Source: a virus. Taken from it: a DNA stretch of 28,127 bases. This document shows positions 13,151 to 28,127 of the stretch, piece by piece. The notes under the pieces are model-generated. The model was not told the DNA's origin. It was given only the letters and a program-made list of their open reading frames with translations, and searched no databases. The position numbers and the translations under genes were made by a program. The DNA lies in IMG/VR virus record IMGVR_UViG_3300035698_018921, positions 1-28,127 of that record. One strand, 5' to 3'. Every line of letters starts with the position of its first letter. Position 1 is the first letter of the stretch.

Positions 13151-14071
13151 ATGGCAAAAAAGAAGAATTTCTGGGACAACGACGTTATGAATCCCTTGTT
13201 GGGGCAGTATAAGTCTTTATATGTCATAGACAAAAAGTCAAAAACGGCCAAAATGGTGGGTCCAGAGTCGCTCAGAAAGGCTCTCTATGACGATCAGATA
13301 CATGCACAGCTAGCAGGACTAGTTAATGCAGCAGCCGTGATAATTGATCGTAGTCTCGGAAATAGATTTGCTAGTCGCGCGCTTAACTATGACGTAATCC
13401 ACGGATGCACAGCTTTTTTGAACGAATGCATTCTTTTTAATTGGGATTCGTCAAAGTCCAAGAGTTTCAATTACTTACTACTCTGTGCGCGTGGATGGCT
13501 AGTTGATTATCATAAGGGTCAGAGTAAGAGGGCTACTTCTGGAGATATTGGAAAGATTAAATACAAGAGTAGCATCAAAGACCTTCCAGATCATTTGAGG
13601 GATTTGAAGAACACGGAAAGATGGAAGATTGGAGATTGGGTCGATGAAGAATTCCCTGGATGTACGTGGGGTTGGCACCGTAAAAAAGAGAACAAAGTAT
13701 TAATTAATACTCCCATCAGATACATTGTATCGATGAATGACGAGGCACAGGTTGAAGAGATGGCGGCGGAGGAGGATGTATCATGGGCCCAAATTATCGA
13801 CACAATCAATTGGCAACTCCTATCAGAGTACATCCCGGATACATCCTCCTCATATTATTCAAAACAATTAGCTTATAGTCTCATAGATATATTAAAAGAC
13901 ATTGTTACACATTCAGAAGATGGGATTTATAAAGGAAAGAAATTGAATCAAATATATCTCTACAGTTTGCTCACCCAGGCCCTCCCTTATTCAGTCAATA
14001 TGGGCGCATTTATTTTGACAAAAGATACTCTTCGACAAGCATATAGTTTTTATGCTGAGGATTACATGTGA
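13151..14071 (+). CDS. Sigma-like transcription factor (T4 gp55-like region 2)
   Basis: In this 306-residue protein, residues about 78-126 resemble sigma factor region 2. A DVIHGCTAFLNECILFNWD stretch is followed by KSKSFNYLLLCARGWLVDYHKGQSK. This matches the pattern of bacterial sigma factors and T4 gp55, where the first part binds the RNA polymerase clamp helices and the second contacts the -10 element. The C-terminal half is not recognisable as region 4. It lies between terminase and portal genes and is transcribed with the head genes, start ATG 13151 with AGGT upstream. The likely role is directing RNA polymerase to phage late promoters. The call is from pattern only. Confidence 0.55.
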   Translation: MAKKKNFWDNDVMNPLLGQYKSLYVIDKKSKTAKMVGPESLRKALYDDQIHAQLAGLVNAAAVIIDRSLGNRFASRALNYDVIHGCTAFLNECILFNWDSSKSKSFNYLLLCARGWLVDYHKGQSKRATSGDIGKIKYKSSIKDLPDHLRDLKNTERWKIGDWVDEEFPGCTWGWHRKKENKVLINTPIRYIVSMNDEAQVEEMAAEEDVSWAQIIDTINWQLLSEYIPDTSSSYYSKQLAYSLIDILKDIVTHSEDGIYKGKKLNQIYLYSLLTQALPYSVNMGAFILTKDTLRQAYSFYAEDYM

Positions 14072-20550: not shown

Positions 20551-20566
20551 TTTAATAAGGACGTCT

Positions 20567-20581
20567 GGCTCCAGTGGAGCC
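20567..20581 (-). repeat. Inverted repeat sharing the tRNA acceptor 3' strand
   Basis: On the minus strand, GGCTCC of the tRNA acceptor arm is followed by ACT and then GGAGCC, a perfect 6-bp inverted repeat. The 3' flank could pair with the acceptor strand in place of the tRNA 5' end. Confidence 0.7.
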
Positions 20582-20647
20582 TATCGGACTCGAACCGATC
20601 ACCTCCGCCTTGCAAAAGCGGCGCTCTCCCAGATGAGCTAAGGCCCC
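20575..20647 (-). tRNA. tRNA-Ala (anticodon TGC)
   Basis: This 73-nt cloverleaf has acceptor arms GGGGCCT/AGGCTCC (one G-U pair), D arm GCTC/GAGC, anticodon arm CCGCT-TTTGCAA-GGCGG with anticodon TGC, variable loop AGGTG, T arm ATCGG-TTCGAGT-CCGAT and discriminator A. CCA is not encoded. TGTAAATA ends 9 bp upstream of its first base. It is the only tRNA seen and may support Ala-rich virion proteins. Confidence 0.96.
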
Positions 20648-20655
20648 AGATGTAA

Positions 20656-20663
20656 TATTTACA
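20656..20663 (-). promoter_or_regulatory. Putative late promoter motif directly before the tRNA
   Basis: On the minus strand, exact AAATGTAAATA (20666-20656) precedes the tRNA. By analogy with T4 late promoters the transcript would start about 3 nt before the mature tRNA 5' end. The site sits in the near-palindrome TGTAATATTTACA. Confidence 0.5.
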
Positions 20664-20698
20664 TTTTTCAGGTCTAGCCTTGACAAGATCTGGATGGT

Positions 20699-20717
20699 GA
20701 TCTGGTCGTACCAGGTC
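20699..20717. repeat. 8-bp inverted repeat between divergent units
   Basis: GATCTGGT and ACCAGGTC flank CGT, with one mismatch as DNA (G-U as RNA). It lies between the leftward tRNA and the rightward polymerase promoter and could be an operator. Nothing else supports function. Confidence 0.4.
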
Positions 20718-20762
20718 GGAAAATACTAAACGGAGAACAATTATGATAATAATACATAACCC

Positions 20763-20792
20763 TTGACAGTTTTGCCATCGGTGTGCATACAT
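20763..20792 (+). promoter_or_regulatory. Putative sigma70-type promoter of the polymerase unit
   Basis: Perfect TTGACA (20763-20768), an 18-bp spacer, then ATACAT (20787-20792) with an extended-minus-10-like TGC just before it. Predicted start is near G20801, the first base of the structured RNA below. TGTAAATA is absent, which suggests early transcription by host polymerase. Confidence 0.5.
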
Positions 20793-20800
20793 ATAGTATC

Positions 20801-20903
20801 GGGTAGGGAGATGGACACAAAATAAAACTCCGTAAAAGTAAAAACCGTCCAGACGAATTGATCCTCGTCAACTCCCTACCCCGCCTTCGGGCTTTTTACG
20901 GGG
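20801..20903 (+). ncRNA. Predicted structured RNA: three-way junction plus possible pseudoknot
   Basis: P1 is GGGTAGGGAG (20801-20810) with CTCCCTACCC (20872-20881), a perfect 10-bp helix. P2 is TGGAC (20812-20816) with GTCCA (20847-20851). P3 is GACGA (20852-20856) with TCGTC (20865-20869). Junction linkers are 1, 0 and 2 nt. The A-rich P2 loop contains CCGTAAAA (20830-20837), complementary to TTTTACGG (20894-20901), which overlaps the T tract after a GCC-TTCG-GGC hairpin (20883-20892). An alternative CCCCG/CGGGG stem (20879-20883 with 20899-20903) would break P1. It may be a small RNA or an attenuator-like leader for the polymerase gene at 20967. I match it to no known RNA family. Confidence 0.6.
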
Positions 20904-20966
20904 TTTCTAAACAGTTTCTTTTATTATCAGATTAATGTCTGGTATTAAACAATTACGGAGAATAAT

Positions 20967-22487
20967 ATGAGCATGAAAATAAACAAGCTGGATGCTATGA
21001 AGCAGACTAATACTTCCTCACCAGGGGAGGATATATGGTTGGACCCAATGATTTCAAAATCTGCTGGATCTACAAATCAACTGTACATAATGGCTGGATA
21101 TGTGGAATCTAAGATGGGCTGGCCCTGTGGCGTGAAGAGAGGTCATCTAATCCTATCTCACCTAGCTGACTGCCATTATAGAGAATTAAATTACTGGGCT
21201 GATGAGGCTCCAGCTTACATAGCAATATCCCTGGATAAAAACGACTACCGTCCACAAAATGCGTCAAACAAATCTAAGTCTGGGAAGATGATAAGAAGGG
21301 ATTATAAGAATGCCTTTTTCAAACTAGATGAAATCAAAGACACGATAGAGAAACTGAGAGATCATGGATACATCTTTATTATTGGAGGTGCATCTGGAAG
21401 AAAGACTAGAATAACTCCTTCAAGAAAACTAAAGATACTTTTTGAGGTGACTCCAGAAAACTTAACAACTGCAATCGAATATAACTCTAAAGAAAAGGCT
21501 ACAGCCCTTATTAAAGAATCATTTGTCTCAATAATTGTTAAAGATCAGAATAAAAGACTAACAACTACTATTGATGGTACTACGAGAAACCTGGAGAGGA
21601 CTAGAAATATATTGCTGAAAGCTATGGAGACTATCTGGTCATCAGAACACGTCCTCAGTCTTGAATTAACTCAAGATATGATAGACAATGCATCTGATGA
21701 GACGGCAGATCATCTTGCGAGAATGCTTAATGATGCAACTGTAGATTGGAGCCCTCTAGAGGAGTCCCACGACGACCTGAATCTCACACCCACCCCCTCT
21801 ATACCCTTAGGTAAGTATACAGAGACTATTTCAGGGTACTCAACATACAAAAACTTCAATGATTACAAAGGTATAGACGTGGCTGGACTGGCGCACCTCA
21901 TTTTGGCCCCTGGCAGCTATAATATCACCCCTCATTTGGTCTGCAAAACTGTCTACAATAATTGCTCCAGCAAGCAAGGCGGAAGACTGTATTGCGCTGC
22001 ACAAAACATCCCAAAAGAATTCAGAGTCGGATTACGAATAAATGGTGAGCCATTAGTTTATCTCGACATTAAATCATGCCAACCAAGAATGCTTTTCCAC
22101 ATGAAGAACCTGGAAGCTCCAGACGATCCATATCTAATAGAGGGATACGACAGGTCAGAGATGAAAAAGATCGTCAATATAGCCATAAATAACCCAAAGA
22201 CCACCAGAAGCCCTCTAATCAAAGCGTTCCTGCAAGCCCACCCCTTGGTACAAGATTACATTGGATCAGGCGTAGGGATTAAATTACAAGCCTTTGAGGG
22301 TACAATAGCTCGTAGGCTGATGGATAAATGGACATGCAGGAAGGGAATACTATTCTTGCCGATACATGATGGCTATATAATCCAGAAAGAATATGAAGAA
22401 GAGTTTTCAAATGACATAATTAATTATTACTCGGACATAAAAGAACTAAATAACTTCAATCCAATACTGGACATTGAACATATATAA
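20967..22487 (+). CDS. PolA-like palm-domain replication protein
   Basis: This 506-residue protein has a C-terminal polymerase palm. Motif A is LDIKSCQPRML (Asp367, Arg374), the motif B-like helix is RSEMKKIVNIAINN (396-409) and motif C is LPIHDGYII (His467-Asp468), the order seen in family A DNA polymerases and T7-type RNA polymerases. GGRLYCAAQNIPKEFR upstream of motif A is typical of a phage/plasmid branch as I recall it. No 3'-5' exonuclease motif is seen. Residues 1-330 are charged, helical and unrecognised. ACGGAG precedes ATG 20967. It is the only replication gene visible, so it may combine initiation and synthesis. A fragment of this gene recurs at 10485-10610. Confidence 0.65.
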   Translation: MSMKINKLDAMKQTNTSSPGEDIWLDPMISKSAGSTNQLYIMAGYVESKMGWPCGVKRGHLILSHLADCHYRELNYWADEAPAYIAISLDKNDYRPQNASNKSKSGKMIRRDYKNAFFKLDEIKDTIEKLRDHGYIFIIGGASGRKTRITPSRKLKILFEVTPENLTTAIEYNSKEKATALIKESFVSIIVKDQNKRLTTTIDGTTRNLERTRNILLKAMETIWSSEHVLSLELTQDMIDNASDETADHLARMLNDATVDWSPLEESHDDLNLTPTPSIPLGKYTETISGYSTYKNFNDYKGIDVAGLAHLILAPGSYNITPHLVCKTVYNNCSSKQGGRLYCAAQNIPKEFRVGLRINGEPLVYLDIKSCQPRMLFHMKNLEAPDDPYLIEGYDRSEMKKIVNIAINNPKTTRSPLIKAFLQAHPLVQDYIGSGVGIKLQAFEGTIARRLMDKWTCRKGILFLPIHDGYIIQKEYEEEFSNDIINYYSDIKELNNFNPILDIEHI

Positions 22488-22772
22488 GAAAGACAAGAAA
22501 CTAGATACCACAGAGGAGATAGCATTAATAAATACAATCAATACAATCTGAAAGCAAGAGGCAAGGCCACCCACAACGATTAGGGAGACTCAAGTACTTT
22601 TGAAATCATAGCTTATGAGAAACTGAAAGCATGGTTACCCATCACAATGTCTACTTAAAGGTCCACAACCGCCCCTAGAATCCATTTGTAATACCTACCC
22701 TACGCCGTACCATATCAAGGACCAACAAAGTCCTTAGAAGGTATTTGAGAGACTAACTCTTAATTAAAATTA

Positions 22773-22793
22773 CTTAAAGTCAATTCTAGGAAA
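22773..22793. repeat. 21-bp direct repeat, copy 1
   Basis: The sequence beginning CTTAAAGTCAATTCTAGG is repeated exactly at 22851-22871, with starts 78 bp apart. The two copies flank an AT-rich segment. Confidence 0.9.
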
Positions 22794-22850
22794 TAAAGGT
22801 CACATCAAATGCAAATAGTCTTTTAATTTCAACAAGTTAAGAGAACATTC

Positions 22851-22871
22851 CTTAAAGTCAATTCTAGGAAA
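22851..22871. repeat. 21-bp direct repeat, copy 2
   Basis: This is identical to 22773-22793. It lies 4 bp before the terminator stem at 22876. Possible iteron-like site or a product of local duplication. Confidence 0.9.
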
Positions 22872-22875
22872 GGAG

Positions 22876-22905
22876 CCTAACTGTTTGATATTGTTAGGTT
22901 TTTTT
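22876..22905 (+). terminator. Rho-independent terminator before the lysis genes
   Basis: CCTAAC (22876-22881) pairs with GTTAGG (22893-22898) and is followed by seven Ts. It separates the polymerase transcript from the lysis/late operon. Confidence 0.8.
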
Positions 22906-22935
22906 ACATCATGGACTCCATAAATGTTAGTAAAA

Positions 22936-22943
22936 TGTAAGTA
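22936..22943 (+). promoter_or_regulatory. Putative late promoter motif variant (TGTAAGTA) before the lysis operon
   Basis: AAATGTAAGTA (22933-22943) follows the terminator and lies 29 bp before ATG 22973, differing from the repeated 11-mer at one base. Confidence 0.45.
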
Positions 22944-22972
22944 ATAATAGTACTAATTAAGAGGAGGTCTAC

Positions 22973-26872: not shown

Positions 26873-28006
26873 ATGGCTTCCGGTAATACACCGTTTCTAA
26901 CAAAAAACTTACGATGGGCTATCGGGGCACAAACGTCCTTGACCGCTCCAGTTGCAACATCGGCAACCCAAATCCGCATGCTGCCCGCAACAACCGACTC
27001 ATCTATCAGCTACGATAAGGGAACTAATTTAATTCCTCGATCATCTGTTATGGATGGTTTTGCTGGAGCAATGTGTGGAGTTAGAGGTTCGGCTGGGTCG
27101 ACTATAGCTTTAACAGCAGAACTGCACGATACAGATGGTGGAGCAGCAGGCGAAGTCGCAAATTACTTCGCTCAAACTATGCTAGCATCAGGTTTTTCAG
27201 CGACCTCTAATGGTACTGATCTAGTCGAATTCAGGCCAAGTCATGGATTGCTAACTGCTGTGGCAGCCACCGTAGTACCAGCAAGCTCAGGGTCAGTAGT
27301 TCAACCAGCCGTTGCAACTCTATTCCATTATCAAACCAATACTAATACTGGTTTTCCATATATGAATAGATTCGTAGGATGCACAGGAAACACCACGTTT
27401 GATTTACCAACAGGTGAAATTGCAAAGATTACAACAACTTACACAGGTCTATTCGAAGACTCTGATGATTGGCAAAATACTACTGGTATATCAAGCCTAC
27501 CAACAGCTTTCTCAGGATCGGGGGCGACCGCTGACGTATCTTGCCGACCATACGTGGTCAGGGGAGCTACAATAACCATTGCGGATTCAGCCGGCGAGGC
27601 AGCTAATGTCATAAACCTCCCATCTGTATCAATTGATTTCAAGGGAACTCCAGTTGAAAACCTTGACCCAACTCAGACTTATGGATTTGGTTCTGAAAGA
27701 ATTAGTTTTAACGAAGCTGCTGAGATTAGTTTCTCAATTGGTCTTGATGCATTAAATATGGGAGATGAAGATTTTATTGGATTTCTTCAGGCGTTCCGCG
27801 ACGGAGACAAAGGTAGTTTGAACATTGTTCTTGATACTGGGGATAATTCTGGAAATACTATTGAATTTGTTTTCCCAGGCGTCCAGTACTCGGGTTACAC
27901 CCCAGCGGCCGCCAATGGCGGAATGTCAGCAGCCATAACAGCCGTGGCAGTAAGAACTCCAGGTGTCGATGATGGTCCTGTGATTTATTACACCTACGGT
28001 AATTAA
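26873..28006 (+). CDS. Major tail tube protein
   Basis: This 377-residue protein is encoded before the tail chaperones and tape measure across the circular junction. It is Gly/Ser/Thr/Ala-rich and beta-stranded. An N-terminal LRWAIGAQTSLTAP is followed by a core with repeated Ig-like strand patterns and a C-terminal GDNSGNTIEFVFPGVQYSGY, typical of tail tube subunits. AAGGAG precedes ATG 26873. The stop lies in the terminal repeat (28004-28006) and is followed by a strong terminator. It polymerises into the DNA-conducting tail tube. Confidence 0.78.
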   Translation: MASGNTPFLTKNLRWAIGAQTSLTAPVATSATQIRMLPATTDSSISYDKGTNLIPRSSVMDGFAGAMCGVRGSAGSTIALTAELHDTDGGAAGEVANYFAQTMLASGFSATSNGTDLVEFRPSHGLLTAVAATVVPASSGSVVQPAVATLFHYQTNTNTGFPYMNRFVGCTGNTTFDLPTGEIAKITTTYTGLFEDSDDWQNTTGISSLPTAFSGSGATADVSCRPYVVRGATITIADSAGEAANVINLPSVSIDFKGTPVENLDPTQTYGFGSERISFNEAAEISFSIGLDALNMGDEDFIGFLQAFRDGDKGSLNIVLDTGDNSGNTIEFVFPGVQYSGYTPAAANGGMSAAITAVAVRTPGVDDGPVIYYTYGN

Positions 28007-28127
28007 ATCTTAATTGCAACTTAATATCAGAAAAGGGACTGCTTATGTGGTCCCTTTTTTTATTGTGTGCTATATATAGATATAAATCAAACCAAACATG
28101 GAGTATTAAAAATATGTTCTCACCACA
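28001..28127. repeat. Right copy of 127-bp terminal repeat (circularity overlap)
   Basis: This is identical to bases 1-127. Features in this copy (tail tube stop, terminator, promoter-like TATAAATC, chaperone start) are the same locus as at the left end and should not be counted twice. Confidence 0.93.

Follow-up and report, generated by a model that had tools for sequence, protein, structure and literature searches.

The c4 RNA of phages P1 and P7 blocks translation through loop sequences that pair in the region of the ribosome-binding site (RBS) (PMC12197685). The c4 consensus structure (RF01695) is a three-way junction with two 5-bp hairpins. A second RNA family, sRNA-Xcc1 (RF02221), is regarded in published work as a virulence sRNA acting in trans, and no paper naming both sRNA-Xcc1 and antirepressors was found in a literature search. 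In Xanthomonas integron cassettes, sRNA-Xcc1 lies upstream of symE (PMC12444791).

Members of the sRNA-Xcc1 family were gathered by BLAST with the family consensus, which yielded phages of Haemophilus, Acinetobacter, Escherichia, Pasteurella, Moraxella and Bordetella as well as plasmid-collection records. Fourteen loci scored above the family cut-off, at 63-86 bits (loci examined: L014-L027, e.g. L025:898-1018 and L018:122-253). In every annotated locus that was opened, from phage and plasmid alike, a gene on the strand of the RNA began about 30-60 nt after it; this gene was usually an antirepressor, or else a KilA-N, BRO, Rha or unnamed one. The P3 loop was perfectly complementary to the RBS of the next gene over 6-11 nt in 11 of the 11 loci tested, the target mostly lying at about -14 to -19, and at -7 in two loci. 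The summed P3-loop match was 81, compared with a mean of 54 for swapped partners, and none of 10,000 permutations reached 81. Judged from these sequences, the family function is suggested to be c4-like repression of the next gene; by analogy, the P3-loop rule is the c4 principle of P1 and P7, and it predicts that sRNA-Xcc1 represses symE. Additionally, a sub-threshold copy (33.9 bits) was observed in a Neisseria gonorrhoeae record (L022:1110-1180), 140 nt after a full copy, with CTGTTTG in its loop and CAAACAGGAG ahead of the next ATG, which indicated that degenerate sRNA-Xcc1 members exist below the Rfam cut-off.

Genome setting and fold of the element

The window analysed here is the whole 28,127-nt stretch of IMGVR_UViG_3300035698_018921. 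Its 127-bp ends (1-127 and 28001-28127) are identical, and the contig is a complete circular-type phage genome of 28,000 bp, carrying terminase, Mu-type portal, capsid, sigma-factor and CHAP-lysin genes. The element is located in a 319-nt non-coding stretch between a tRNA-Ala gene, which was the sole Rfam match of the genome at gathering score, and a gene at 20967-22487. The features of this region and of the element were as follows.

20574-20647, minus strand: tRNA-Ala(UGC) gene; the CCA end is not encoded
20744-20767: mini-ORF ATG ATA ATA ATA CAT AAC CCT TGA (MIIIHNP), with a strong Shine-Dalgarno sequence
20763-20799, plus strand: weak candidate promoter region (consensus scans only)
20801-20810, plus strand: 5' strand of P1, from the fold and the covariance-model alignment
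20812-20851, plus strand: P2 hairpin in the fold, with a 5-bp stem (20812-20816/20847-20851) and a 30-nt loop; aligns with P2 of sRNA-Xcc1
20825-20838, plus strand: 5' strand of the loop-to-flank (pseudoknot) helix
20852-20869, plus strand: P3 hairpin in the fold, with a 5-bp stem (20852-20856/20865-20869) and an 8-nt loop
20872-20881, plus strand: 3' strand of P1 in the fold, pairing perfectly with 20801-20810 over 10 bp
20878-20904, plus strand: alternative tail hairpin ACCCCG...CGGGGT, competing with the base of P1; counterparts in most sRNA-Xcc1 loci
20883-20897, plus strand: UUCG hairpin (20883-20892) followed by T5, a possible weak terminator or small-RNA 3' end
20893-20906, plus strand: 3' strand of the loop-to-flank (pseudoknot) helix

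The earlier note had described a three-way junction here, and this is indeed the minimum-energy fold of 20801-20903, with linkers of 1, 0 and 2 nt among P1, P2 and P3. The z-score relative to dinucleotide shuffles was -2.8 for 20801-20903 and -3.6 for 20801-20880. The 10-bp inverted repeat taken alone is at chance level, as four perfect 10-bp inverted repeats within 100 nt were counted in the genome against 3.3 expected. The plus-strand fold was among the best 1% of genome windows; the minus-strand fold ranked higher (0.07%), so that folding alone does not fix the strand. The 8-nt pairing between loop and 3' flank that the note had claimed exists and proved longer, extending to 14 bp with G-U pairs. 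This 14-bp helix was matched by 24 of 4000 shuffled loops, and its strict 8-nt Watson-Crick core was common (1089/4000). The claimed CCCCG/CGGGG stem was also recovered, as ACCCCG at 20878-20883 with CGGGGT at 20899-20904.

The TTGACA promoter proposed in the note was found to be weak (TTGACA at 20763-20768, 17 nt, CATACA at 20786-20791; genome rank 264), and a better candidate was formed by TTGCCA at 20772-20777, 16 nt and TAGTAT at 20794-20799 (genome rank 36). At the other end of the element, the terminator scan did not report the UUCG hairpin with its T5, whose stem is only 3-4 bp. The pseudoknot strand does overlap the T tract as had been stated; its use as an attenuation switch does not stand, the 3' strand being made after the termination decision. 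Since this strand begins within the T tract and extends past it, the pseudoknot could act only in read-through RNA.

No close relatives of the phage were detected through its polymerase, terminase and capsid among viral and genome contigs, and BLAST of the RNA against phages and plasmids returned no homologues. A search for the P1 pattern in viral and genome contigs gave only long perfect hairpins of another kind, and three matches to the loop-and-flank pattern were rejected, their folds being entirely different from that of the element. Several other features of the genome were recorded. Positions 20696-20708 of the plus strand are a partial repeat of the T-arm region of tRNA-Ala. The strongest local fold of the genome lies at 13769-13857, a perfect 14-bp inverted repeat within the gene at 13151-14071. 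On the 3' side of the gene at 20967-22487, 420 nt (22552-22972) lack a sizeable ORF, and a fairly stable plus-strand fold is found inside this stretch at 22816-22905.

The polymerase-like gene and its Shine-Dalgarno sequence

The gene following the element encodes a 506-aa protein, and three further features were needed to describe the proposed relation between the two.

20967-22487, plus strand: family-A-like polymerase gene, 506 aa (PHROG 4756, E 1e-24; motifs), the proposed regulated gene
20828-20835, plus strand: CTCCGTAA, anti-Shine-Dalgarno sequence in the P2 loop, perfect complement of 20953-20960
20953-20960, plus strand: TTACGGAG, Shine-Dalgarno sequence of the polymerase-like gene, the proposed target of the P2 loop

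PHROG 4756, a PHROG of unknown function, was the only one matched by the protein, and Pfam did not recognise it. Distant relatives of it were found in Vibrio and Rheinheimera phages and, by an alignment-based search, on five IMG/VR contigs. Across the five relatives, motifs characteristic of family-A and single-subunit polymerases were conserved: D367 (motif A), R396-x3-K400 (motif B, assigned by visual inspection) and H467-D468 (motif C). The AlphaFold model was poor (pLDDT 36), and its weak structural matches were to family-A DNA polymerases. The protein is probably a diverged polymerase-like protein of the family-A or single-subunit type, and because it is unrecognised by Pfam, "polymerase-like" is drawn from the motifs. 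In the upstream regions of the five distant relatives, neither the RNA nor a loop-to-RBS match was found.

The match between the P2 loop and the Shine-Dalgarno sequence of this gene is the most telling feature of the locus and was absent from the earlier note. The loop pairs with the Shine-Dalgarno sequence by 8 of 8 Watson-Crick pairs at -14. The sequence TTACGGAG is unique on the plus strand of the genome, and its complement CTCCGTAA likewise occurs just once, in the P2 loop. When 30 genes were tested for an 8-nt upstream complement to their RBS, the polymerase-like gene was the only one to have it, with the longest such match. An equal match was obtained with 45 of 4000 shuffled loops (1.1%) and with 0.9% of random 30-mers of the genome. 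P3 offers a weak 5-nt match, AATTG at 20856-20860 complementing CAATT at 20950-20954 at -17, which is expected by chance in 3%. The pairing of the P2 loop with the Shine-Dalgarno sequence and its 14-bp pairing with the flank are mutually exclusive.

The mini-ORF upstream of the element was seen to resemble the start of the polymerase-like gene: 11 of 12 bases are repeated between the two start regions, and CCTTGACA is present twice, with a spacing of 83 nt. The mini-ORF is possibly a leader peptide or a duplicated start.

Likeness of the element to sRNA-Xcc1

An Rfam scan of 20780-20970 (191 nt) gave sRNA-Xcc1 as the best match, with 20.6 bits and an E-value of 0.19 against all families. The match covered model positions 1-87 entirely on the plus strand and was sub-threshold, missing the gathering cut-off of 53 bits by far. 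A wider scan of 341 nt returned no sRNA-Xcc1 match, probably owing to the filters, and a search of the phage's own genome with RF02221 reported nothing. A covariance model (R1) with 18 pairs was built from eight sRNA-Xcc1 RNAs, with the window excluded; the covariation of its members exceeded that of all 500 of 500 shuffles. When R1 was run across the whole 28-kb window with filters off, the top site was 20803-20887 on the plus strand, at full model length with 21.3 bits and an E-value of 0.00068, which is not an independent test, the family having been picked after a scan of 4227 Rfam families. The runner-up in the 28 kb scored 8.5 bits and the minus strand at the same site 7.3 bits. Among the controls, loci sharing the exact P1 letters scored 10-13 bits and a true c4 RNA 7.9 bits, which indicated that neither P1 nor a generic three-way junction accounts for the match. 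A sequence-only sRNA-Xcc1 model was not significant at the site (3.3 bits, E 2.1), and the likeness is therefore mainly structural.

The earlier note had called the element undescribed, a description that can no longer be kept: its architecture, register and strand fit sRNA-Xcc1 and also, though less closely, the c4 antisense RNA. With the model built from other members, P1, P2 and P3 were found in register on one strand, and the RNA (20801-20897) directly precedes the gene starting at 20967, which is on its strand. The element shares with sRNA-Xcc1 its length, junction order, P1 GGGAG/CUCCC, P2 GGAC/GUCC, P3 and the register over 87 positions, the position just upstream of a gene on the same strand, a loop complementary to the downstream RBS, and a tail hairpin that overlaps P1 at its 3' end, as in most family loci. 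Differently, the pairing loop is P3 in the family and mainly P2 in the element, the linker after P3 is 6 nt in the family and 2 nt in the element, and the downstream gene is ant, BRO, Rha or symE in the family and a polymerase-like gene here. In the alignments, the conserved P2 motif AUACAA..ACCCGAAAGGGGAAUA of sRNA-Xcc1 was absent from the element. Because this motif and the 6-nt linker are missing and P3 offers 5 nt, the element was not filed as a member of sRNA-Xcc1; by analogy it most likely functions like one, and it may be a very diverged relative. The c4 covariance model (RF01695) gave no match in this genome. A pRNA-like packaging RNA and a hammerhead ribozyme were also considered and rejected, with no Rfam match and no catalytic core.

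Proposed function and comparison with known systems

The earlier note had left the choice between a small phage RNA and a switchable leader, which was about right. On the sequence evidence, the element would be a small antisense leader RNA of the sRNA-Xcc1/c4 kind that blocks translation of the polymerase-like gene, to which we assign a probability of roughly 0.55. Transcription of the plus strand would start just upstream of 20801, and the RNA would either end close to the UUCG hairpin with its T tract or be cut from the leader of the gene. The three-way junction would display CUCCGUAA in the P2 loop, which would pair with UUACGGAG, the Shine-Dalgarno sequence, about 72-79 nt downstream of the 3' stem of the RNA. 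The block on translation would come either from the free small RNA, acting in trans, or from the leader itself, in cis, and less polymerase would be made as phage copies and small RNA build up. In RNA that reads through, the 3' flank could capture the P2 loop in the 14-bp pseudoknot, by which the Shine-Dalgarno sequence would be freed and the mRNA made competent.

Two other readings place the same stretch in the leader of the gene. In the one, there is no functional RNA, and a chance inverted repeat and chance complementarities happen to lie in a long 5' untranslated region. The number of 10-bp inverted repeats, a plus-strand fold only within the best 1% of windows, the lack of homologues in our searches and a p of about 0.01 for each single test agree with it; we nevertheless consider it rather unlikely, as several lines concur in strand, register and gene context and R1 picks out the site alone in 28 kb. 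In the other, an attenuator or leader that acts in cis and has no relation to sRNA-Xcc1 sets read-through into the polymerase gene by means of the junction, the weak terminator and the pseudoknot, perhaps coupled to the upstream mini-ORF with its three AUA codons. The UUCG hairpin followed by T5, the overlap of the 14-bp helix with the T tract, and the good Shine-Dalgarno sequence of the mini-ORF with its bases shared with the polymerase start region would suit such a device. An intrinsic attenuator as the main function was rejected, its stem of 3-4 bp being too short and the pseudoknot strand being synthesized too late, and this reading, which leaves the unique anti-Shine-Dalgarno and sRNA-Xcc1 matches unexplained, is unlikely.

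The strand and the nucleic acid itself were also questioned. A structured RNA or a tiny gene on the minus strand would agree with the slightly more stable fold there (-29.1 kcal/mol), with its rank in the genome, and with the following open frame.

20740-20818, minus strand: 25-codon frame through P1, starting with GTG at 20818, with Shine-Dalgarno-like ACGGAG 9 nt upstream

This frame is probably due to chance, and a minus-strand feature is very improbable, given that the plus strand holds the C(UUCG)G loop, the T tract and the sRNA-Xcc1 match, that R1 scored poorly on the minus strand, and that no convincing minus-strand promoter appeared in the consensus scan. It is just as improbable that the stretch acts as DNA, as a replication origin or protein-binding cruciform beside the polymerase gene. 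The adjoining replication-type gene and the long inverted repeats would agree with this, but the single-stranded DNA fold is much less special (z -1.95) and the anti-Shine-Dalgarno match has meaning only in RNA; a replication origin was rejected, as no iterons occur in 20560-21000.

The small antisense leader RNA proposed here resembles c4 (RF01695) in being a phage RNA with its target downstream on the same strand, in its three-way junction with two hairpins of 5 bp, and in having a loop that complements the RBS region of the target. Differently, the closing helix of c4 is 17 bp long, its first hairpin carries a UUCG loop, and it controls an antirepressor operon, whereas the proposed target of the element is a polymerase-like gene. 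With the Inc RNA/repZ system of the ColIb-P9 type, it would share RNA control of replication-gene translation and a 5' pseudoknot (PMC9977716); Inc RNA is encoded on the opposite strand, with full complementarity to the leader, whereas the element is on the same strand, and the likeness is one of analogy only. A broader and more tentative proposal is that phages use sRNA-Xcc1/c4-type antisense leaders generally and not just for the lysogeny switch; here a diverged example, with a rewired loop and a competing pseudoknot, would set the polymerase dose. If true, same-strand antisense control of the c4/sRNA-Xcc1 type would extend from antirepressor to polymerase genes, and the locus would be a directly testable example of RNA-based dosage control in phage replication, comparable to copy-number control in plasmids, though with the RNA encoded on the strand of its target.
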